Below, piece by piece: positions 43,198 to 52,838 of a stretch of DNA of 64,000 nt (position 1 is its first letter; each line of letters starts with the position of its first letter). This DNA is from Polynucleobacter sp. AP-Sving-400A-A2 (GTDB taxonomy: Bacteria; Pseudomonadota; Gammaproteobacteria; Burkholderiales; Burkholderiaceae): NCBI RefSeq assembly GCF_018688155.1, contig NZ_CP061312.1:620001-684000 (forward strand). The letters are read 5' to 3'. The position numbers were made by a program, and so were the translations under genes. The notes under the pieces are model-generated. The model had not been told where the DNA came from. It did no database searches and worked only from the letters and a program-made list of their open reading frames with translations.

Positions 43198-44787
43198 TTA
43201 AAAGCCCGCCGCCAATCCATCACGACGATGATCACTGCCAGCAATATAGGCTTCATTTGTTTGTTCGCCTAATAAGGCAATCGCTTGAGCGCTACCAAAG
43301 TCCAAGCTATTAGCTGGCATCACCGTCACTTCATGCCCCATCGCTTTTAGTCCTTCGACTACTGCAGTTGGCATAGACGTTTCAACAGTGAGCTTGCCCA
43401 CATCATCAATTCTCCAGCGGGGTGCATCTGAGCAGGCCTGTGGATTGAGGTATTCATCGACAAAGCGCATCACAAATTGAAGATGTCCCTGTGGCTGCAT
43501 ATTGCCACCCATCACACCAAATGCCATTGCTGGCTGACTGCCTTTGGTGAGGAATGCGGGGATGATCGTGTGGAAAGGACGTTTACCAGGCGCAACTTGA
43601 TTGGGATGACCATCTACTAAGCTAAAGCTCATGCCGCGGTTATGAAAGGCAATACCACCAGGAGCAACCACGCCAGAGCCAAAGCCTTTGAAGTTCGACT
43701 GAATATAAGAAATCATCATGCCGTTCTCATCCGCAGCGCACAGGTAAACCGTGCCACCAGCATGTGGATCTCCAGCGCCATAGCTACCCGCTTGATTGTG
43801 ATTAATCAGTGCAGCACGGCTAGCCAAATAGTCTCCATCTAGTAGGGCACTTGTTGGCACTTTCATGTTGCTGGCATCGGATACATGAGCATAGGCATCA
43901 GCAAAAGCCATGCGCATGGCTTCCACTTGCAGATGAATGCGTTTCGCAGAGTTAGCTGGGTATTGTTTTGCATTAGCCCCTTGCAAAATGCCGAGCGCCA
44001 TCTGCGCCACAATGCCCGAGCCATTGGGAGGAATCTCATGCAAGGTGTAATCGCCATAATCAAACGCCAAGGGCTCAACCCAGTTAGTTTGATTAGCAGC
44101 AAAATCTGCCATGGTGAAACAGCCACCGGTACTTTGAGCAAAGTCGACCATACTTTGGGCTAACTGACCGGTGTAAAAAGATTCACCCTCAGTGTTGGCG
44201 ATCTCACGCAAGGTATTGGCTTGAGCAGGATAGCGCCAGATTTGGCCAGCAGCAGGCGCCTTGCCATCAATCAAAAAGGATGCACTAAAACCAGGCTCAT
44301 TCTTCAGAATGGGAATTGCTTCGCGCCATTGACGGGCAATGACCGGTGAAACTGGAAAGCCATTTTCAGCATAGTCAATCGCACGTTTAAAGAGTTGTGC
44401 AAAAGGCAGCTTGCCAAATTTGCGAGATAACTCAATCCAACCCGAAACCATGCCAGGTACAGTCACAGTATTCCAGCCAATTAAATCCATTGCTGTTTTG
44501 CCAGAAAAATACTCTGGTGTCCAAGCGGCTGGGGCACGACCAGAGGCATTCATACCATGGAGTTTTTTACCATCCCAAATCAATGCAAAGCCATCACCAC
44601 CAAGGCCATTCATGGTTGGTTCAACCACGGTGAGTGTGATCGCAGTAGCTAAGGCTGCATCAACCGCATTGCCGCCATGTTGTAAAGCCTCAATACCTGC
44701 CTGCGTTGCCAATGGCTGTGAACTAGCAACTGCATTTTTAGCAAGGACTGGGGCACGGCCGCCACCAAAGGGAGGGGAAATTAACAT
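43198..44787 (-). CDS. ggt: Gamma-glutamyltransferase family, no signal peptide
   Basis: A 529-residue Ntn-hydrolase. The precursor should cut itself before Thr346 in HAGGTVYLCAADENG, whose threonine becomes the nucleophile of the small subunit. GGDGFALIWDGKK and the FGSGVVAPGGIAFHNRG loop are family marks. E. coli Ggt is exported, but this protein starts MLISPPFGGG, so it is probably cytoplasmic, as in YwrD-like members. The likely role is glutathione or gamma-glutamyl compound hydrolysis. Next to a Bug receptor gene on the same strand. Confidence 0.9.
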   Translation of the reverse strand: MLISPPFGGGRAPVLAKNAVASSQPLATQAGIEALQHGGNAVDAALATAITLTVVEPTMNGLGGDGFALIWDGKKLHGMNASGRAPAAWTPEYFSGKTAMDLIGWNTVTVPGMVSGWIELSRKFGKLPFAQLFKRAIDYAENGFPVSPVIARQWREAIPILKNEPGFSASFLIDGKAPAAGQIWRYPAQANTLREIANTEGESFYTGQLAQSMVDFAQSTGGCFTMADFAANQTNWVEPLAFDYGDYTLHEIPPNGSGIVAQMALGILQGANAKQYPANSAKRIHLQVEAMRMAFADAYAHVSDASNMKVPTSALLDGDYLASRAALINHNQAGSYGAGDPHAGGTVYLCAADENGMMISYIQSNFKGFGSGVVAPGGIAFHNRGMSFSLVDGHPNQVAPGKRPFHTIIPAFLTKGSQPAMAFGVMGGNMQPQGHLQFVMRFVDEYLNPQACSDAPRWRIDDVGKLTVETSMPTAVVEGLKAMGHEVTVMPANSLDFGSAQAIALLGEQTNEAYIAGSDHRRDGLAAGF

Positions 44788-44837
44788 GGATCTAATCGAT
44801 TCTATTTAAAGGTGTGCAAGCTTGGGTGTATTAGCTA

Positions 44838-45830
44838 TTAATCAATTTTAACGTTGGCTGCTTTCACTGCCTTTGCCCACTTATCATGCTCGCTTTGAGT
44901 GATCAAAGTTAATTGCTCAGAGTTGGCAAATTGAGGATGGATGCCCTGGTTTGCCAGGCGATTCTTGAAGTCAGGGTTCGTTAAAATTTTCCGAATTTCT
45001 CTTTCTAGTCTTGCAGTAATAGCTGGCGATGTTCCTTTAGGAGCAAAAAAGGCGTATAGGTTCTCCACATCAAATTGCTTCATGCCATCTTGACCCAAGG
45101 TTGGAACATTCGGCATTAATGGTGAGCGTTCGGGAGCCGCAATCGCAATGGGGCGTAACTTACCGCTTTGAATGTGTGGCAAAGATGCAGTCACGCTATC
45201 AAACATCATGAGTGTATTACCGGCAATTAAATCTGGCAGGGCAAAAGCGCTACCTTTGTAGGGGATGTGGGTGCCAGCAGCACCAATCCGTTGCATAAAC
45301 AAAGTTGACTCCAGGTGAGAGAGACTGCCGTTACCTTGAGAGGCGTAATTAAATTCTCCCTTCTTGGATTTAATAAAGGCAATCAGTTCAGGCAAATTCT
45401 TAGCAGGTACAGAAGGGTTCACTACGATCAAATGCGGAATTGAACCCACTAGTGCAATGGGCGCAAAATCTTTGGTGAGGTCGGCCGGTGGATTTTTGAA
45501 AAGCGCTTGAGAAATAGACTGATTGGTGAGGGCACTAAATAACAGGGTGTAGCCATCAGGTGCTGCCTTGGCTGATGCACCTAGGGCAATCATGCCACCA
45601 GCACCGGGTTTATTTTCAATCACAATGGGTTGACCTAATGCTTCTCCGAGTGGAACGCCAATAGCGCGCGCAAATATATCAGTAGAGCCACCAGCAGGAA
45701 AAGGCAGGATGGCGATGATCGGTTTCTTAGGCCAATCTACATCTGATGCTGCCAAGGCGTTGCCGCATAGGATGCTTGTGAATACAAAGCCTAAGAGTAC
45801 ATGGGCAGTTTTGCGCTTAAGAGGATTCAT
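44838..45830 (-). CDS. Bug/TctC-family solute-binding protein (second copy)
   Basis: A 330-residue Bug receptor with a signal peptide (HVLLGFVFTSILCGNALA) and the family blocks VDWPKKPIIAILPFPAGGST, ENKPGAGGMIALGAS and HIPYKGSAFALPDLIAG. It is a diverged paralogue of the receptor at 3199-4191. It stands 50 bases upstream of the gamma-glutamyltransferase gene on the same strand, so its ligand might be related to that enzyme, though Bug receptors are often orphans. Confidence 0.92.
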   Translation of the reverse strand: MNPLKRKTAHVLLGFVFTSILCGNALAASDVDWPKKPIIAILPFPAGGSTDIFARAIGVPLGEALGQPIVIENKPGAGGMIALGASAKAAPDGYTLLFSALTNQSISQALFKNPPADLTKDFAPIALVGSIPHLIVVNPSVPAKNLPELIAFIKSKKGEFNYASQGNGSLSHLESTLFMQRIGAAGTHIPYKGSAFALPDLIAGNTLMMFDSVTASLPHIQSGKLRPIAIAAPERSPLMPNVPTLGQDGMKQFDVENLYAFFAPKGTSPAITARLEREIRKILTNPDFKNRLANQGIHPQFANSEQLTLITQSEHDKWAKAVKAANVKID

Positions 45831-46006
45831 GTTGACGTTCTTTAAGTGATGAATAATTTGTTTTAGGAGAATACCAATCGCTCAAGCTTAAAGCAGTAGC
45901 GATCGGAGAAATGACTTCTTTGATACTAAATCGGACATTGCTGCTCATTATTAGTGCAAGCCATCACTTTTGCGGTCATCCACGACATTTTATTGGAGCA
46001 AGTCAA

Positions 46007-46732
46007 CTAATTAAACAGGTGGTACAAAATCGGAATGGCTACAGCACTGATGACGCCATTCATACCCATAGCGAGACTGGCATAAGTTCCTGCCACTGGA
46101 TGAATGCTAAATGCACGCGAGGTTCCAATGCCATGCGCGCCAATACCAATGGCAAAACCGCGTTGCCACCACGCTTTCATACCCAAAGCATTCAGAATAA
46201 AGGGTGCCAAAATAGCCCCTAGGATGCCAGTAGTGACGGCAAAGATGGCAGTCAAGGTCGGGGATACGCCGATCCGCTCAGCAATACCCATAGCTATAGG
46301 TGCAGTAACTGATTTGGGGTACATGGCACCCGTAATGCTGGAGTCAGCCCCTAATAATTTGGCGATGTTTACCGCGCCAATAATGGATACCAAGCCACCC
46401 GCAATTAAAGATGCCAGCAAGGGAAATGATCGACCCTTTAAGCTGCTTAAACCTCTATAGATCGGTATGGCCAAAGAGACGGTTGCTGAGCCTAATAAGA
46501 AGTGGATAAATTGCGCGCCTTCAAAGTAGGTGGAATACGGCATCTCAACAAATTGAATAATGCTGGCCACCAAAATGATTGCAATTGCTACTGGATTGGC
46601 TAAGGGGTTCTGTTTGGCAGCCTTATAAATTGAGAGACCTATTTTATAGGCGGCCAAAGTAATAAAGAGGGCAAATAAAGGGCTACCTGAGAGATAAACC
46701 CAAATCTCCACAATCGAGTGTTTTTCGTTCAT
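46007..46732 (-). CDS. lrgB: LrgB/CidB-family membrane protein
   Basis: A 241-residue membrane protein with about seven hydrophobic segments. The central MYPKSVTAPIAMGIAERIG and GIGAHGIGTSRAFSIHPVAGTYASLAMG stretches are LrgB signatures. With LrgA it affects murein hydrolase activity in Gram-positives; in plants and some bacteria LrgB-type proteins move glycolate or pyruvate-like acids. The start overlaps the lrgA stop (ATGA), so the two are a pair. Confidence 0.92.
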   Translation of the reverse strand: MNEKHSIVEIWVYLSGSPLFALFITLAAYKIGLSIYKAAKQNPLANPVAIAIILVASIIQFVEMPYSTYFEGAQFIHFLLGSATVSLAIPIYRGLSSLKGRSFPLLASLIAGGLVSIIGAVNIAKLLGADSSITGAMYPKSVTAPIAMGIAERIGVSPTLTAIFAVTTGILGAILAPFILNALGMKAWWQRGFAIGIGAHGIGTSRAFSIHPVAGTYASLAMGMNGVISAVAIPILYHLFN

Positions 46733-47082
46733 TGCCCCGTCTCTTTTGGCTTTGGGCTCAAAAAGCGGACCACTATCGCGCTGGTGGCAATAGTCAGAAT
46801 GACGCTACCGACCAAAGCGCTGATGATGGCCAGCGCATTGGCCTGCAGTTGGGGCAAAAATAGCACCACCCCAACGGCTGCCGGAACAAATAAGAGGCCA
46901 AGGTATTGGCTAAAGCCGTCCGCCACCAATGCGAGCTCGGGGTTAATTCCCTTGCGTAGAACTAGCCAAATAATCAGCAGTACCAAGCCAATTACGGGCC
47001 CTGGCAGGGTGGGCAGAACAAACTTAGATACAAGCTCACCCAGGCTTTGAAAGAGAAGGATTTGGACTAGGCCGGAAATCAT
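46729..47082 (-). CDS. lrgA: LrgA/CidA-family membrane protein
   Basis: A 117-residue holin-like protein with four membrane segments. LPTLPGPVIGLVLLIIWL and FVPAAVGVVLFLPQL are the conserved parts. Usually partnered with LrgB, which follows here with a 4-base overlap. Divergent from iorA, leaving 132 bases for two promoters. Physiological role in Gram-negatives is uncertain. Confidence 0.92.
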   Translation of the reverse strand: MISGLVQILLFQSLGELVSKFVLPTLPGPVIGLVLLIIWLVLRKGINPELALVADGFSQYLGLLFVPAAVGVVLFLPQLQANALAIISALVGSVILTIATSAIVVRFLSPKPKETGQ

Positions 47083-47214: not shown

Positions 47215-47664
47215 ATGGCTGACTTAAACGTCAACGGTAAAAAGTACAAGGTGGATGTTGATCCAGAAACCCCGTTGTTGTGGGCGATCCGTGATCATGT
47301 TGGATTAACAGGTACTAAATATGGTTGCGGTGTAGGTCAGTGCGGGGCATGTACTGTCTTGTTTGATGGCCAAGCAATTCGGAGCTGTGCATTACCAGTG
47401 AGCGCAGCTGTAGGTAAAAAGATTGAAACCATTGAGGGCTTAGAAAAAAATGGGCAGCTCTCTAAAGTGCAAAAAGCTTGGGTTGATAACCAGGTGCCTC
47501 AATGTGGTTACTGCCAGTCAGGCATGGTGATGGCAACTACGGCCCTATTGCGCAATACCCCAAAACCGACTGATGCTCAGATTGATGCTGCCGTAACGAA
47601 TATCTGCCGCTGCGGAACCTTCCAACAAGTGCGTGATGCTATTCATGCTGTGAGCAAGGCATAA
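47215..47664 (+). CDS. iorA: Isoquinoline 1-oxidoreductase-type small subunit, [2Fe-2S]
   Basis: A 149-residue iron-sulfur subunit of the xanthine oxidase family. The plant-ferredoxin cluster is CGVGQCGACTVLFDGQAIRSC-like (Cys near 42, 47, 50 and 62), and the second cluster uses CGYCQSGM and NICRCGTF. ATG 47215 is chosen because AAGGAGAG precedes it at good spacing. It carries electrons from the molybdenum cofactor of the next gene's product. First gene of an apparent six-gene run that continues with soxXYZA. Confidence 0.93.
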   Translation: MADLNVNGKKYKVDVDPETPLLWAIRDHVGLTGTKYGCGVGQCGACTVLFDGQAIRSCALPVSAAVGKKIETIEGLEKNGQLSKVQKAWVDNQVPQCGYCQSGMVMATTALLRNTPKPTDAQIDAAVTNICRCGTFQQVRDAIHAVSKA

Positions 47665-47673
47665 GGAGCAATC

Positions 47674-49905
47674 ATGACTAAAACTATTAATACAAACACT
47701 ACCAACACTTCACGTCGCCACTTTATTGTTGGCTCAAGCGCTATTGCAACCGGATTAGCAATCGGCTTTGATTTCTCTTTCATCTCATCTGCGAATGCGG
47801 CGATGGGTTCCGGTACCACTGGCATGACTCCCTTATCTACATCCGAGATTGGTGTTTGGGTAGAGGTCAAGCCGAATGACGATATCGTAGTGCGAATCGT
47901 GCGCTCCGAGATGGGTCAAGGAACTATTACTGGTTTGGCACAAATGGTTGCTGAAGAGCTGGAATGTGATTGGAAAAAAATCTCTTACGACTATCCAACA
48001 CCCGGTGAGAATCTCAAGCGTAACAAAGTATGGGGCAGCTACTCTACTGGCGGTAGTCGTGGTATCCGTACTTCTGAGCAATATGTTCGTAAAGGCGGTG
48101 CCGCAGCACGCATGATGTTGATTCAGGCTGCTGCAACCCAATGGGGCGTACCCGTCTCTGAATGCGTCGCTAAAAATAGCGTGATTACCCACACACCATC
48201 TGGCCGCAAAACGACTTTCGGTAAAGTTTCTGTAGCAGCCTCCAAGTTAGAAGTGCCCAAAGATGTCCCTTTAAAGGATCCTAAAGAGTGGACTGTCATT
48301 GGTAAGTCATTGAATCGTATTGACGGCACTGCTGACAAGGTAAACGGTAAGCAGATCTATGCAATTGACTTGAAGTTACCCGGTATGTTGGTAGCAACCA
48401 TTCATGAGTCTCCAGTTTTTGGTGGCAAAGTGAAGAGCTATGACGCTAGCAAAGCCTCCAGCATGAAGGGAGTAAAGAAGGTGATTCAGGTAGGTGATTC
48501 TGCTGTAGCAGTGATTGCTGACACTTTCTGGCAAGCAAAGACCGGCCTAGACGCAGTCAATATAGTTTGGGATAACGGCGGCAATGGCGATGTCTCTAGT
48601 GCCTCTATTAAGAAGATGCTTGAGGGTGGCTTAACTGCTAATGAGACTTTTGTCGGTAATTCGAATGGCGATGCTAAAGAAGCAATCTCTAAAGCAACTA
48701 AAACGATCGAGGCAACCTATTTCTATCCATTCTTGAACCATGCAACTCTGGAGCCACAAACAGCAACAGCGAAGTGGACGGCAGATTCTTGCGAAGCTTG
48801 GGTTCCCACTCAAGATGGTGAAGCCTCTTTGGCTGCGGTAATCGCTGCTTCAGGCTTGCCTGCTGAAAAATGTAATGTCTATAAGGTAAATCTTGGCGGT
48901 GGTTTCGGTCGTCGCGGCGCCTTCCAGGATTACACAACACAAGCAGTCAACATTGCCAAGCAAATGCCAGGCACTCCAATCAAATTGATTTGGACTCGTG
49001 AAGAGGATATGACCCAAGGCCGTTATCACCCGGTAACGATGTGTAAAATGACGGCCGCCATTGATGATAAGAAAAATATCACTGGCTTGGATATGCGCAT
49101 CTCCAGTCAATCCATTTTGGCTTCTGTGCGTCCAGCGGTAGTTGCTGCCAACAAAGGTAAGGATCCAGTGGTGTTCCAAGGACTAGACGCTGCGGGTGAG
49201 CATGGTATTACTTACAGCTTCCAGAATTTGATGATTGACCACGCTATGCGTAACACGCATGTGCCGCCAGGTTTTTGGCGCGGCGTGAACGTTAATCAAA
49301 ATGCAATCTTCCTCGAAACCTTTATGGATGAGATGGCTGAAGCTACTGGTGTGGATGCAGTCGAGTTCCGTCGCAAGCACATGGAGAAGTTTCCGCGTGC
49401 AGTAGCTGTTCTCAATGCAGTAGCAGATGGTATTGGTTGGACTAAGCCTGCTAAGCCAGGTGTATTCCGTGGCGTTGCCCAGATGCGTTCTTTTGGTAGT
49501 TATGTCGCTGCTGCTTGTGAGCTCACAGTGACTAACGGCAATGAGGTCGAGATTCTCCGAATGGTGGCTGCAACTGATCCGGGCTATGCGGTCAATCCAG
49601 CACAAATAGCCCGTCAGGTATCCGGCTCCTTTGTTTATGGCTTATCTGCACTCTTCGAAGAAGAAATCACGATTGAGAAGGGCGCAGTTGTACAGAAGAA
49701 TTTTGATACCTTTAACTCTATTCGTCTGTCACAGATGCCACCGGTAGAGACCATCATTATTCAGGGTGGTGGCAAAGAGTGGGGAGGTGTTGGTGAGCCC
49801 ACGATTGCAGTCGCGGCACCAGCAGTGCTTAATGCGATTTACCGTGCAACAGGCAAGCGCTTGCGTACGGTTCCATTGAAGAACAGTGGTTTTAAGTTGG
49901 TGTAA
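47674..49905 (+). CDS. iorB: Isoquinoline 1-oxidoreductase-type large subunit, molybdopterin-binding, Tat-exported
   Basis: A 743-residue molybdenum hydroxylase of the IorB type. The N-terminus has a Tat signal (SRRHFIVGSSAIATGL), so the enzyme works in the periplasm. Blocks include QGTITGLAQMVAEELE, NLGGGFGRRG, RGVNVNQNAIFLETFMDE and the active-site Glu in WGGVGEPTIAVAAP near the end. Family members oxidise N-heterocycles or aldehydes and pass electrons to cytochrome c. The usual third cytochrome subunit is absent; instead soxX begins 19 bases after the stop. Substrate unknown. Confidence 0.93.
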   Translation: MTKTINTNTTNTSRRHFIVGSSAIATGLAIGFDFSFISSANAAMGSGTTGMTPLSTSEIGVWVEVKPNDDIVVRIVRSEMGQGTITGLAQMVAEELECDWKKISYDYPTPGENLKRNKVWGSYSTGGSRGIRTSEQYVRKGGAAARMMLIQAAATQWGVPVSECVAKNSVITHTPSGRKTTFGKVSVAASKLEVPKDVPLKDPKEWTVIGKSLNRIDGTADKVNGKQIYAIDLKLPGMLVATIHESPVFGGKVKSYDASKASSMKGVKKVIQVGDSAVAVIADTFWQAKTGLDAVNIVWDNGGNGDVSSASIKKMLEGGLTANETFVGNSNGDAKEAISKATKTIEATYFYPFLNHATLEPQTATAKWTADSCEAWVPTQDGEASLAAVIAASGLPAEKCNVYKVNLGGGFGRRGAFQDYTTQAVNIAKQMPGTPIKLIWTREEDMTQGRYHPVTMCKMTAAIDDKKNITGLDMRISSQSILASVRPAVVAANKGKDPVVFQGLDAAGEHGITYSFQNLMIDHAMRNTHVPPGFWRGVNVNQNAIFLETFMDEMAEATGVDAVEFRRKHMEKFPRAVAVLNAVADGIGWTKPAKPGVFRGVAQMRSFGSYVAAACELTVTNGNEVEILRMVAATDPGYAVNPAQIARQVSGSFVYGLSALFEEEITIEKGAVVQKNFDTFNSIRLSQMPPVETIIIQGGGKEWGGVGEPTIAVAAPAVLNAIYRATGKRLRTVPLKNSGFKLV

Positions 49906-49924
49906 TGGCTATGGGCAAACAGGA

Positions 49925-50359
49925 ATGAGACGAACGCTAGTAGTTTTATTGCTAGGGACCTCGACTCTTTTCCTGCCTTGCTTAGCGCAGTCTCAAACTT
50001 GGACAGGGGATTCGATTGTGAGTCCCCTGACTTCTTCTCCAGGTGATGTTATGAAAGGGCGTGCGATTGTAGCTAGCCGTCAAGTCGGTTTATGTTTGTT
50101 GTGTCATAGTGGGCCATTTCCGGAAGAACGCTTTCAGGGTAATCTAGCGCCAGACTTGCTTGCTAGTGTGGGCCAATCCACTCCAGCTCAATTACGGGCT
50201 CGATTAGTTGATCCGGGCCGCTTGAATCCATCCAGTGTCATGCCGGCGTACTATCGCACTACTGGGCTGAGTCGTGTGGCTCCCAAGTTTGTCGATCAGA
50301 CTATTCTTACTGGCCAGGAGATAGAAGATGTTGTGGCTTTTTTAGTAAGCCTTCAATAA
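49925..50359 (+). CDS. soxX: SoxX-like monohaem cytochrome c
   Basis: A 144-residue exported cytochrome. The signal peptide ends near LAQSQ; haem c binds at CLLCH (Cys57, Cys60, His61), with Met106 in SSVMPAYY as the likely distal ligand. FQGNLAPDL, LRARLVDPGRLNP and the IEDVVAFLVSL end are typical of SoxX. SoxX pairs with SoxA to couple sulfur compounds to SoxY. ATG 49925 has only a poorly spaced AGGA. Directly downstream of iorB. Confidence 0.88.
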   Translation: MRRTLVVLLLGTSTLFLPCLAQSQTWTGDSIVSPLTSSPGDVMKGRAIVASRQVGLCLLCHSGPFPEERFQGNLAPDLLASVGQSTPAQLRARLVDPGRLNPSSVMPAYYRTTGLSRVAPKFVDQTILTGQEIEDVVAFLVSLQ

Positions 50360-50382
50360 GCAACTGAAATCACGAAATCAAT

Positions 50383-50868
50383 ATGACTAAATTCAATCCG
50401 AGTTCAAATCCCATCAAACTGAGTCGGCGTATGTATTTGTCTGCGCTGGGTCTTTTAGGTCTATCCAGTTGGATGACTTCGAGTTTGACTATGGCTAAAC
50501 AGCCAGAGGCAATGGAGGCGATCGCAAAAATTGCCGGCTCGAACAGGATTCGTGATGGCCGAGTGAACTTGGTAATTCCGCCTTTGGTGGAGAGTGGCAA
50601 CTTGGTGGTTCTCAAGCTATCCATAGACAGTCCGATGACTGCAAATGACTACGTTAAGGCAGTGCATGTAATCTCTGAGGCCAATCCATCCCCCAATATG
50701 TTTACTGCTTATTTCTCGCCCCGCTCCGGTCGCGCTGAGTTAACTACTCGTGTGCGCTTGGCAGACTCACAGCGAGTATGGGCTATCGCGCAAATGAGTG
50801 ATGGTAGCTTTTTCCGAGGGTATGCCGACACGCTAGTCACTCTTTCAGCCTGTACGGAGATGATATGA
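50383..50868 (+). CDS. soxY: SoxY-like sulfur carrier, unusual C-terminus
   Basis: A 161-residue protein with a Tat-like leader (LSRRMYLSALGLLGLSSW) and the SoxY core: NLVIPPLVESGNLVVLKLSID, YVKAVHVISEANPSP, and ELTTRVRLADSQRVWAIAQMSDGSFF. Classical SoxY ends in GGCGG, whose Cys carries the sulfur substrate. Here the end is SACTEMI, with a single Cys157 four residues from the C-terminus. The arm is therefore present but not canonical. It overlaps soxZ (ATGA). Confidence 0.85.
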   Translation: MTKFNPSSNPIKLSRRMYLSALGLLGLSSWMTSSLTMAKQPEAMEAIAKIAGSNRIRDGRVNLVIPPLVESGNLVVLKLSIDSPMTANDYVKAVHVISEANPSPNMFTAYFSPRSGRAELTTRVRLADSQRVWAIAQMSDGSFFRGYADTLVTLSACTEMI

Positions 50869-51194
50869 GCAAGACTTCCCGCACGGGTATCACGATGCCA
50901 GCCCAGGCAAAAAAAGGTGCCATGATTGAAATTCGGGCAATCGCCCAACACGACATGGAGACGGGCTATCGATACACTGAAGATGGTAAACGAATCCCAC
51001 GTGACATTATTCAACTCTTTACTTGTCAATATAACGGCGAGGAAGTATTCAGAGCCGATTTTTATCCAGGTACCGGTGCAAACCCCCTCATCATTTTCAC
51101 TACAGTAGCAGTGGCCTCTGGCACGCTTGTGTTCAAGTGGGCGGGGGATGGTGGCTATGAGGCAGTTAATCAAGCACAAATTACTGTTTCGTGA
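50865..51194 (+). CDS. soxZ: SoxZ-like partner of SoxY
   Basis: A 109-residue immunoglobulin-like protein without signal peptide, exported with SoxY in the usual way. Marks are KKGAMIEIRAIAQHDMETGYR, RIPRDIIQLFTCQYNGEEVFRADF and LVFKWAGDGGYEA. SoxYZ carries sulfur intermediates between the Sox enzymes. ATGA overlaps with soxY and GTGA with soxA make translation of the three tightly coupled. Confidence 0.92.
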   Translation: MSKTSRTGITMPAQAKKGAMIEIRAIAQHDMETGYRYTEDGKRIPRDIIQLFTCQYNGEEVFRADFYPGTGANPLIIFTTVAVASGTLVFKWAGDGGYEAVNQAQITVS

Positions 51195-51976
51195 GCCTGT
51201 TTGTTTTCTGCCTTCGTGTATTACCGCTATTAGTCTTTCTGCTTGGGCTTAATTCCAGTCAAGCACTTGAAACTCCAAAAGATACTCGGCAATCAAGCTA
51301 TCACCTGATGACGCCCGAGAATCGGGCAATGCAAGATGATGCCAATCTCAACCCCGCTTTATTTTGGGTAATGGATGGTCACAGCCTCTGGAAAGAAAAG
51401 ACCGGAAACAAGAATGTATCTTGTGCATCTTGTCATGGTGATAGCGGTCAAAAGATGACTGGTGTAGCAACCCAATTTCCGAAGATGCAAAAAGGAAAGT
51501 TGCAGACCTTGGAGGGGCAAATTAATCAATGTCGTACATCACGGCAAGAAGCCTCGACACTCGCTTATGAGAGTAAAGAGCTCCTAGCTTTAACGACATT
51601 TGTAGCAACTCAATCCAAGGGTTTACCAATCGCTGTTCAAGAAACGCCTCAGAACAAAAAAGATCTACAACAAGGCCGTCAGTTCTTTAATGAAAGAATT
51701 GGTCAACTCAATTTATCTTGTGCCCAATGTCATCAAGATCGCGCTGGTTTGAAATTAGGGGGAAGCCTCATTCCCCAGGGGCACCCAACTGCCTACCCAA
51801 TTTACCGAATTGAATGGCAGACCATGGGGTCTTTACAAAGACGTTTGCGTAACTGTATGAGTGGGGTGCGCGCTCAGCAGTTTGAGTATGGCTCACAAGA
51901 GATGGCTCAATTAGAGTTATTTCTGATGTGGCGAGCCAGAGGCATGCCCCTTGAAACTCCAGGGGTTCGGCCTTAA
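51191..51976 (+). CDS. soxA: SoxA-like dihaem cytochrome c
   Basis: A 261-residue exported cytochrome (signal peptide with LPLLVFLLGLNSSQALE). Two haem sites are seen: CASCH (Cys78, Cys81, His82) and CAQCH further on. The active-site Cys ligand of SoxA is probably in LRNCMSG. GGSLIPQGHPTAYPIYR is a conserved SoxA block. Starts at GTG in a GTGA overlap with soxZ. SoxXA forms the disulfide between thiosulfate and SoxY in the classical pathway, but soxB and soxCD are absent in this window. Confidence 0.92.
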   Translation: MSLFVFCLRVLPLLVFLLGLNSSQALETPKDTRQSSYHLMTPENRAMQDDANLNPALFWVMDGHSLWKEKTGNKNVSCASCHGDSGQKMTGVATQFPKMQKGKLQTLEGQINQCRTSRQEASTLAYESKELLALTTFVATQSKGLPIAVQETPQNKKDLQQGRQFFNERIGQLNLSCAQCHQDRAGLKLGGSLIPQGHPTAYPIYRIEWQTMGSLQRRLRNCMSGVRAQQFEYGSQEMAQLELFLMWRARGMPLETPGVRP

Positions 51977-51983
51977 GTAGGGA

Positions 51984-52838
51984 TTAGTCTGAAAAGACTA
52001 CTGAAGTCGCACCGTTAATTAAGACACGGTCATGTAAGTAGTAACGCAGGGCGCGTGAGAGTACAGTGCGCTCCAAATCTCTGCCCTTACGAACTAAGTC
52101 TTCGGGCGTATCGCCATGGGTAACACGAGTGACATCTTGCTCGATAATTGGACCTTCGTCTAAATCACTCGTAACAAAGTGTGCGGTAGCCCCAATCAAC
52201 TTAATGCCGCGAGCATGAGCTTGATGGTAAGGCTTCGCTCCTTTAAAGCTTGGCAAGAACGAGTGGTGAACATTGATGCAGCGTCCAGATAACTTGGTGG
52301 ATAAATCATCCGACAGAATTTGCATATAGCGCGCCAAAATAACCATATCGACTTTTGCATCAGCAACAATCTCAAGCAGTTTGGCTTCTTGGGCTGACTT
52401 CGTATCTGGCGTAACTGGTAAGTAATAAAACGGAATATCCGCAAAATCGATGCTAGAGTAAACCTCACGCGGATGATTAGAAACAATGCCACTAATAATC
52501 ATCGGCAGCTCACCAATACGCCAGCGATAGAGAAGATCTACTAAGCAATGATCGAGCTTGGATGCCATGATCAGCACGCGCTTCAAATCTTTGACAGCAC
52601 GCAAGTCCCAGGTGAGGTCAAAGCGCTTAGCGATTTCTACAAAGCCAGCTTTAAGGGATTTACTGTCAGCGCCACCGCTAAAGCTTACCCGCATGAAGAA
52701 GCGTTTAGAGGCTTTGTCGTCAAATTGCTGGGCTTCCTCAATATCACCACCCAATTCAAAGATGTAGGTTGAAACAGCTGCAACAATGCCTGGTCTATTA
52801 GGGCAGGTCAGTGTGAGGTAATAATTTTCTGTAGTCAT
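51984..52838 (-). CDS. purU: Formyltetrahydrofolate deformylase
   Basis: A 284-residue PurU. An N-terminal ACT domain (residues 5-80, [14 protein letters not shown]) senses Met or Gly in related enzymes; the formyl-transferase fold follows with [20 protein letters not shown] and [17 protein letters not shown], containing the catalytic Asn, His and Asp. It releases formate from 10-formyl-THF and balances one-carbon pools. Convergent with soxA; the 7-base gap leaves no room for a terminator. Confidence 0.95.

Follow-up and report, generated by a model that had tools for sequence, protein, structure and literature searches.

The locus considered here is a run of six genes on one strand, iorA-iorB-soxX-soxY-soxZ-soxA, at 47215-51976 of a 64,000-nucleotide stretch (the window) from Polynucleobacter sp. 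AP-Sving-400A-A2; the window is genome positions 620001-684000, and the genome is one contig of 2.03 Mb. The run joins a xanthine-oxidase-family molybdenum (Mo) hydroxylase, IorAB, to a set of sox genes whose SoxY has an altered swinging arm. As judged from sequence comparison, iorAB and soxXYZA with such a non-GGCGG arm are demonstrably kept together in Polynucleobacter, in Alcaligenaceae and in Bradyrhizobium, in at least three arrangements; in some genera fcc genes join them, and the association is found also in genomes with no SoxB match. This second conserved sox set with its Mo hydroxylase is probably a separate sulfur pathway, and the six genes very probably make up one functional module, distinct from the thiosulfate Sox of the same genome.

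Closest described systems

In the canonical pathway SoxXA loads thiosulfate onto the SoxYZ carrier. A complete canonical set, soxC-D-Y-Z-A-X-B, with a GGCGG-arm SoxY, lies in this same genome at ~935.8-942.5 kilobases (kb), ~264 kb from the soxA of the window. The two sets have in common the SoxXA cytochromes, the SoxYZ carrier and the SoxA active-site region; they differ in the GGCGG arm and the linked soxB and soxCD of the canonical one, SoxB not being in the window cluster. SoxZ and SoxA are 26-29% identical between the sets, and canonical SoxX and SoxY give no match to the window set at an expectation value (E) of 1e-3. Because the canonical set is complete, the sox genes of the window are a second, paralogous set, not the remnant of a sole one. 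An earlier, sequence-only reading of the window had noted that soxB and soxCD are absent: this is right for the window, where tblastn with the genome's own genes finds no soxB, soxC or soxD, but wrong for the genome. That reading would have given up its idea of a distinct pathway if a complete set lay elsewhere and thiosulfate oxidation ran normally without iorAB; the first half of this is what the genome contains.

The nearest published system, compared by description and not by sequence, is the second cluster of Starkeya novella, soxX2Y2Z2A2F2 (Snov_1982-1977), which is without SoxB and SoxCD and whose operon includes a xanthine-oxidase-family Mo enzyme, Snov_1975/1976, known from the molybdoproteome of that organism (PMC3797975; this and the other papers are cited from excerpts). 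As at our locus, soxXYZA stands with such Mo genes, without soxB or soxCD in the cluster, in a host that also has a complete sox cluster; soxF2 belongs to the operon there, whereas here fccAB is unlinked, ~48 kb away. The excerpted passages assign the cluster no function and do not mention the SoxY arm; the authors suggest that it either has no functional significance or acts under growth conditions other than theirs. Within the excerpts of PMC3308952, PMC12997753, PMC10708946, PMC11582611, PMC3797975 and PMC4782131, only PMC3797975 has an operon of sox and xanthine-oxidase-family genes, and the literature matches listed include no published account of the SoxY arm type or of a wider iorAB-sox linkage.

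Other relatives share less. The quinoprotein dehydrogenase-associated SoxYZ-like carrier TIGR04557 is likewise a SoxYZ-type carrier that goes with periplasmic dehydrogenases and not with thiosulfate oxidation (PMC12997753), but it is a fused SoxYZ beside a SoxH-like hydrolase and pyrroloquinoline quinone (PQQ) enzymes, and the window SoxY scores 51 against its cut-off of 140. Flavocytochrome c stands beside SoxY and SoxZ, without further sox genes, in SAR324 (PMC4782131). The excerpt of PMC3308952 lists the four-gene Pnuc_1154-1157 as one of three SOX clusters in a Polynucleobacter strain, and notes sox genes known otherwise from Alphaproteobacteria such as Bradyrhizobium; by this description Pnuc_1154-1157 may be the same set as the window cluster.

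Gene content

The run consists of the following open reading frames (ORFs).

iorA, 47215-47664, plus strand: ATG start; [2Fe-2S] subunit of a xanthine-oxidase-family Mo hydroxylase; Fer2 and Fer2_2
iorB, 47674-49905, plus strand: Mo-cofactor subunit, 743 residues; MoCoBD_1/2
soxX, 49925-50359, plus strand: monoheme cytochrome c, CLLCH; TIGR04485
soxY paralog, 50383-50868, plus strand: altered swinging arm; TIGR04487
soxZ, 50865-51194, plus strand: partner of SoxY; PF08770
soxA, 51191-51976, plus strand: diheme cytochrome c; TIGR04484

Spaces of 9, 19 and 23 bases separate iorA from iorB, iorB from soxX and soxX from soxY, and soxY/soxZ and soxZ/soxA overlap by 4 bases each; the order, the 19-base gap and the overlaps are as first read, and the family names then given agree with profiles and solved structures. 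Domain profiles place two [2Fe-2S] domains in IorA. The Mo-cofactor domains of IorB are in IorB order, and the Fe-S subunit and Mo-site motifs are of the IorAB/aldehyde-dehydrogenase type; IorB also has a twin-arginine translocation-like RR signal, by eye, and a GVGE motif close to its C-terminus. The best solved matches of IorA and IorB are the small and large subunits of one aldehyde dehydrogenase (8gy3_B and 8gy3_C). That enzyme has a cytochrome c subunit, whereas no multiheme subunit gene adjoins iorAB in the window and iorB is followed by soxX and then soxA.

SoxX passes TIGR04485 (67.8 bits, cut-off 61; solved matches 1h31_B and 2c1d_B), and SoxA passes TIGR04484 (229.5 bits, cut-off 110) and matches SoxA structures. 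With one CxxCH in SoxX and two in SoxA, the pair supplies three hemes, and the run has no further cytochrome c gene, both as the sequence-only reading had it. SoxA keeps the cysteine that aligns with the SoxA active-site region of 1h31_A (RLRNCMSGVR), which we take to be the catalytic one. SoxZ is slightly under TIGR04490 (67 bits, cut-off 76) and meets the broader PF08770. SoxY is of a different family from the thiosulfate carrier, which the earlier reading missed, as it missed that fccAB joins the cluster in other genera: the protein is below the thiosulfate-SoxY model TIGR04488 (78.5 bits, cut-off 125), over the cut-off of TIGR04487, ‘SoxY-related AACIE arm protein’ (185.2 vs 172 bits), and ends in SACTEMI, not GGCGG; its solved matches are SoxY structures (2ox5, 2oxg, 4uwq). 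A promoter and terminator scan (5 promoter-like sites, 8.4 expected by shuffling; 9 terminator-like, 5.9 expected; one at 50004-50029 inside soxX) was not used.

Arm type, linkage and independence from SoxB

A SoxY search of 398 phylum genomes gave 52 rows in 48 of them (E up to 1e-25), and 30 of the loci were read. Arm type and iorB linkage agree in all 30: the 20 loci with an [SA]AC arm are all iorB-linked, and the 10 with GGCGG are not. The genomes of these 10 have no IorB match at E 1e-140, and several of the loci sit with soxB or soxCD. The remaining 22 rows, among them the second SoxY genes of four linked genomes and a row from genome G541, lie outside this count. Approached from the enzyme, the same 398 genomes hold 24 IorB matches of at least 50% identity, 21 of them beside sox genes, with soxY 0.5-2.1 kb downstream in 20 and, in genome G387, soxX-soxA directly downstream (iorA-iorB-soxX-soxA at L183:8849-12916). 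A tree of 34 IorB rows unites 31 of them in a clade with full support and leaves the three distant IorB outside it; since the tree has long branches and was sampled partly by way of SoxY, it is supporting evidence only.

Closest by SoxY among named relatives are other Polynucleobacter (up to 92% identity). Across 121 genomes of the genus, iorB (at least 71% identity) occurs in 76 and the window-type soxY in 76: both in 74, iorB only in 2, soxY only in 2, neither in 43. The soxY gene lies directly 3' of iorB, within 1.5 kb, in 72 of 76; among the other four, G654 and G706 (fragmented drafts) carry soxY and iorB on separate contigs, G666 has a soxY truncated by a contig end, and G661 is without such an iorB. 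Contig ends or decay account for the two genomes with iorB alone and for one of the two with soxY alone: the contig of G695 ends inside soxY, and in G723 (L147) the whole cluster is decayed, with iorA, soxY and soxZ matching in pieces, stops in iorB and soxX, and no soxA match. A decaying copy is also seen in Polynucleobacter necessarius isolate PPGSP2 (L060), where iorA matches in pieces and IorB is without the GVGE motif. A search of named contigs places iorB no more than 3.5 kb upstream of soxY in 67 of 74 loci; the seven exceptions are two loci that begin at a contig end (L091, L119), three without iorAB (L097, L074, L081) and two with a GGC-type arm (L129, L131).

The thiosulfate system is usually there as well: SoxB is found in 114 of the 121 genus genomes, so the two systems usually coexist within the genus. 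They can come apart. Among 20 genomes with the cluster or with iorB', a paralog described below, 14 have a SoxB match at E 1e-60. Four cluster-bearing genomes give no such match: Sheuella amnicola, Jezberella montanilacus, and G564 (a single contig) and G323, each of which is recorded as 100% complete. The same holds for G648 (second cluster type, 93% complete) and G680 (78% complete). The presence of the cluster in genomes without a SoxB match, together with a SoxY arm that is not GGCGG, indicates that the module is separable from thiosulfate Sox, and the earlier suggestion of a system distinct from thiosulfate oxidation is borne out to that extent.

Other arrangements

A second pair, iorA'B', lies near 314-317 kb of this genome, its IorB' 49% identical to IorB. 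The genome also has fccAB (fccB, for flavocytochrome c sulfide dehydrogenase, and a small cytochrome c gene) at ~617.7-619.3 kb (L140:9717-11342), just left of the window and ~48 kb from iorA; its FccB is 68% identical to the FccB inside the Jezberella cluster. Elsewhere these genes are drawn into the cluster. In nine named Bradyrhizobium loci fccB stands between iorB and soxX (one locus starts inside iorB), and L135, L137 and L138 have an extra small cytochrome c gene ahead of fccB. Jezberella (L116), L111 and L115 have the order iorA'B'-iorAB-soxXYZA-cytc-fccB, and L113 the same minus the part before iorA. FCSD domains were confirmed in the four FccB scanned (L116, L128, L137 and this genome). 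A second lineage, in seven genomes of the genus (G719, G671, G674, G730, G648, G656 and G637), has iorA'B' tail-to-tail with divergent soxXYZA, of which a contig edge leaves soxYZA in G656; fccB is beside the divergent soxXYZA in three of the seven, and SoxY ends in NACFDAT, SACFDAS or SSCWDGT.

That the partners come together repeatedly, and in different arrangements, speaks against simple descent of a single gene order. It also bears on the simpler alternative of the sequence-only reading, two partial operons adjacent by chance. Each half does resemble known genes, and iorAB also occurs alone; but the same partners recur in three arrangements, in genera with different flanking genes, and 21 of 24 loci are linked in the sample based on IorB. 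Since linkage is conserved well beyond this genome, chance adjacency is very unlikely, to the point that we find it hardly credible.

Flanking genes vary between genera, by eye. In the window, by eye, the minus strand upstream of the run (43198-47082) carries a gamma-glutamyltransferase-like gene, a TctC-like binding protein and an LrgAB-like pair, and a formyltetrahydrofolate-deformylase-like gene (minus strand, 51984-52838) is convergent with soxA.

Constraint on the genes

Catalytic residues are near-invariant in the genes collected. The [ASN]AC arm is found in 113 of 113 SoxY genes, a matter of consistency and not a test, since the genes were collected by similarity and genomes may repeat. 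CxxCH occurs in 112 of 112 SoxX and twice in 111 of 112 SoxA; R[LF]R.C is kept in 110 of 112 SoxA, the other two having RLHDC and RIRNC (the SoxA of L203 and L204, which gave no clean reading, are left out of the counts). The long IorB of relatives keeps G[VLIM]GE in 70 of 71, MGQG in 71 of 71 and GG[GA]FGRR in 62 of 71. Against five relatives, the ratio of nonsynonymous to synonymous divergence (dN/dS) is at most 0.19 for all six genes wherever dS is finite; one pair gives an infinite dS for two genes, and many dS values exceed 1.

These figures speak to a second alternative, in which the additional sox genes are a functionless duplicate, a view put forward for the Starkeya novella strain by the authors who described its cluster. 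The products of that cluster were undetected or very low under the conditions used, except for one SoxF-like subunit at a low level (PMC3797975), and some Polynucleobacter genomes have lost the cluster or hold a decayed copy. Against this alternative, dN/dS is low for each of the six genes, the catalytic residues are near-invariant, co-occurrence with iorB is tight, and the set occurs in distant genera and in genomes where SoxB has no match; it seems to us very improbable.

Two side observations concern the carrier. A SoxY protein search gave 1528 relatives, and among the 120 listed several are named ‘SoxY-related AACIE arm protein’ by NCBI; these were not used further. In L025-L032, SoxY-like matches lie in open frames of ~280-340 residues with no cysteine in the last 14, possibly fused SoxYZ-like carriers.

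Cytochromes of distant IorB

Distant relatives of IorB have other companions. At 37-40% identity there are 11 IorB, and none of the 9 read is sox-linked; 7 of the 9 have a cytochrome c ORF with two or three hemes no more than 2.5 kb from iorB, by a frame-by-frame heme search in which L192 has three CxxCH over two overlapping frames and a one-CxxCH frame of L189 is left out. With the distant IorB loci L141-L143 added, sox linkage is 0 of 12 and a multiheme cytochrome ORF is found in 8 of 12. The one such cytochrome compared with solved structures matches the cytochrome subunits of two enzymes, aldehyde dehydrogenase 8gy3 and quinone alcohol dehydrogenase. Simple ORF calling had indicated that unlinked IorAB likewise lacks a cytochrome gene, an idea that the frame-by-frame search overturned. 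For the 49% IorB paralogs of G000 and G064, no SoxY from the phylum search lies downstream, the locus of G000 alone having been read.

Sox-linked IorAB loci thus hold soxX or fccB where the distant loci hold a multiheme cytochrome gene. From this position it is reasonably likely that SoxXA or FccA is the electron acceptor of IorAB. The sequence-only reading had proposed SoxXA in place of the usual cytochrome c subunit; the distant loci, the place taken by soxX or fccB, and G387 with its soxXA lend this support, while the electron transfer itself is something we infer.

Exceptions to the association

Several observations weigh against the module as proposed here. The TIGR04487 cut-off is passed in 22 of 249 family genomes, all of the same genus and each with iorB upstream, so the six-gene order is not general in Burkholderiales, although the linkage that the sequence-only reading proposed to look for across that order is conserved well beyond this genome. 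Within the genus the run can also break up: iorB has a stop in G176 and G655 (2 of 76), besides G723, though soxY is present, and L097 (same coordinates as G661) has lost iorAB, yet its soxXYZA is intact; the loss is an internal deletion, by eye, that begins near codon 25 of iorA and reaches the final codons of iorB. In L074 and L081, too, iorAB is missing beside soxX. All three genomes retain the iorB' paralog (48-51% identity). Conversely, the stretches read include iorAB without sox genes at 52-71% identity in G050 (second copy), G434 and G541, a monoheme cytochrome c gene adjoining iorA in G541, and among 20 iorA'B' loci of the genus 7 are sox-linked and 13 not. The second copy in G050 (L148:6439-9096) is 71-76% identical, and that genome has the full cluster as well. 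FccB, considered as a co-inherited part, is in 115 of the 121 genus genomes with or without the cluster; it does not track the cluster there and so does not discriminate. For the second cluster of Starkeya novella, moreover, neither SoxAX nor SoxYZ was detected, one SoxF-like subunit appeared at low level, and transcript levels were very low (PMC3797975).

A further exception is G387. Within the 20 kb read it shows no soxYZ, and its genome gives no match to an AACIE-type SoxY at E 1e-25, so that SoxYZ may be dispensable. Its soxXA alone favors an electron role for SoxXA; the active-site cysteine kept in its SoxA favors sulfur chemistry.

What the module might do

A third alternative follows the first of these leads. 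IorAB would be an ordinary periplasmic hydroxylase of the aldehyde or a related type, SoxXA would simply accept its electrons, and SoxYZ and FccAB would be auxiliary, for example in repair of a thiol or of the Mo=S ligand. G387 fits this account, as does the best solved match of IorA and IorB, an aldehyde dehydrogenase with a cytochrome c subunit, and SoxYZ-like carriers beside PQQ alcohol dehydrogenases are on record (PMC12997753). Yet nearly all collected genes retain the active-site cysteine (in SoxA) and the arm cysteine (in SoxY), the SoxA of G387 included; fccB recurs in the cluster; and the 13 unlinked iorA'B' loci persist without sox genes. We judge this alternative unlikely.

A fourth would have IorAB stand in for SoxCD and oxidize sulfane sulfur on the altered SoxY arm, which would give a second pathway for inorganic sulfur that does without SoxB. 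In canonical Sox the Mo enzyme is SoxCD, the arm change accompanies the change of enzyme, and fccAB in some clusters could supply sulfide-level sulfur. Against this, we know of no xanthine-oxidase-family Mo enzyme that oxidizes sulfane sulfur, nor of any release of sulfate from the carrier without SoxB, and the proposal is quite improbable.

The explanation that we prefer, and would put a little short of probable, is a second periplasmic sulfur-carrier system with a Mo enzyme. In the periplasm, by the reaction with which canonical SoxXA loads thiosulfate, SoxXA would oxidatively couple a sulfur compound to the altered SoxYZ at its arm cysteine, and the changed arm would suit partners other than SoxB and SoxCD. 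FccAB, where present, might feed in sulfide-level sulfur or reactivate SoxYZ. Xanthine-oxidase-family Mo enzymes oxidize C-H bonds or CO, and IorAB is proposed to oxidize carbon because its family does so: this aldehyde-dehydrogenase-like enzyme would act on the carbon part of the same or a coupled compound and pass electrons to the c-type hemes of SoxXA or FccA, which are put forward as acceptors because their genes occupy the place of the multiheme cytochrome gene.

A carbon-sulfur compound would be the simplest substrate to accommodate sulfur loading, carbon oxidation and the electron role together. A small compound of that kind, rather than thiosulfate, is a tentative choice, both substrate and chemistry being conjectural. 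The most novel version, a hitherto unrecognized periplasmic pathway, is somewhat unlikely as it stands: SoxXA would tie a carbon-sulfur compound to the arm cysteine of the SoxYZ paralog, whose redesigned arm would hold an organic sulfur intermediate; the Mo hydroxylase would oxidize the carbon while or before it is bound, shared c-type hemes would take the electrons, and the Sox carrier principle would thus serve carbon-sulfur chemistry without SoxB or SoxCD. One candidate was set aside. Methanethiol, with a methanethiol oxidase yielding formaldehyde and sulfide for IorAB and FccAB, is not a general answer: of 10 cluster-bearing genomes searched, 2 have the SBP56 family (PF05694), which is missing from this genome. 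A gene of that family lies ~7 kb from the iorAB-fcc-sox cluster in L137:1-1406 (G447).

Implications

The findings suggest a second type of Sox-like carrier module, with the [SAN]AC arm of SoxY, instead of GGCGG, as its marker. In the loci read, this arm goes with a neighboring Mo hydroxylase, and SoxB is not required. On the strength of sox names alone, genomes with this cluster can pass for those of thiosulfate oxidizers. If the substrate is an organosulfur compound, the module would be an additional route in the sulfur and carbon cycles of Polynucleobacter, abundant in freshwater, and of the Bradyrhizobium of soil and legumes.

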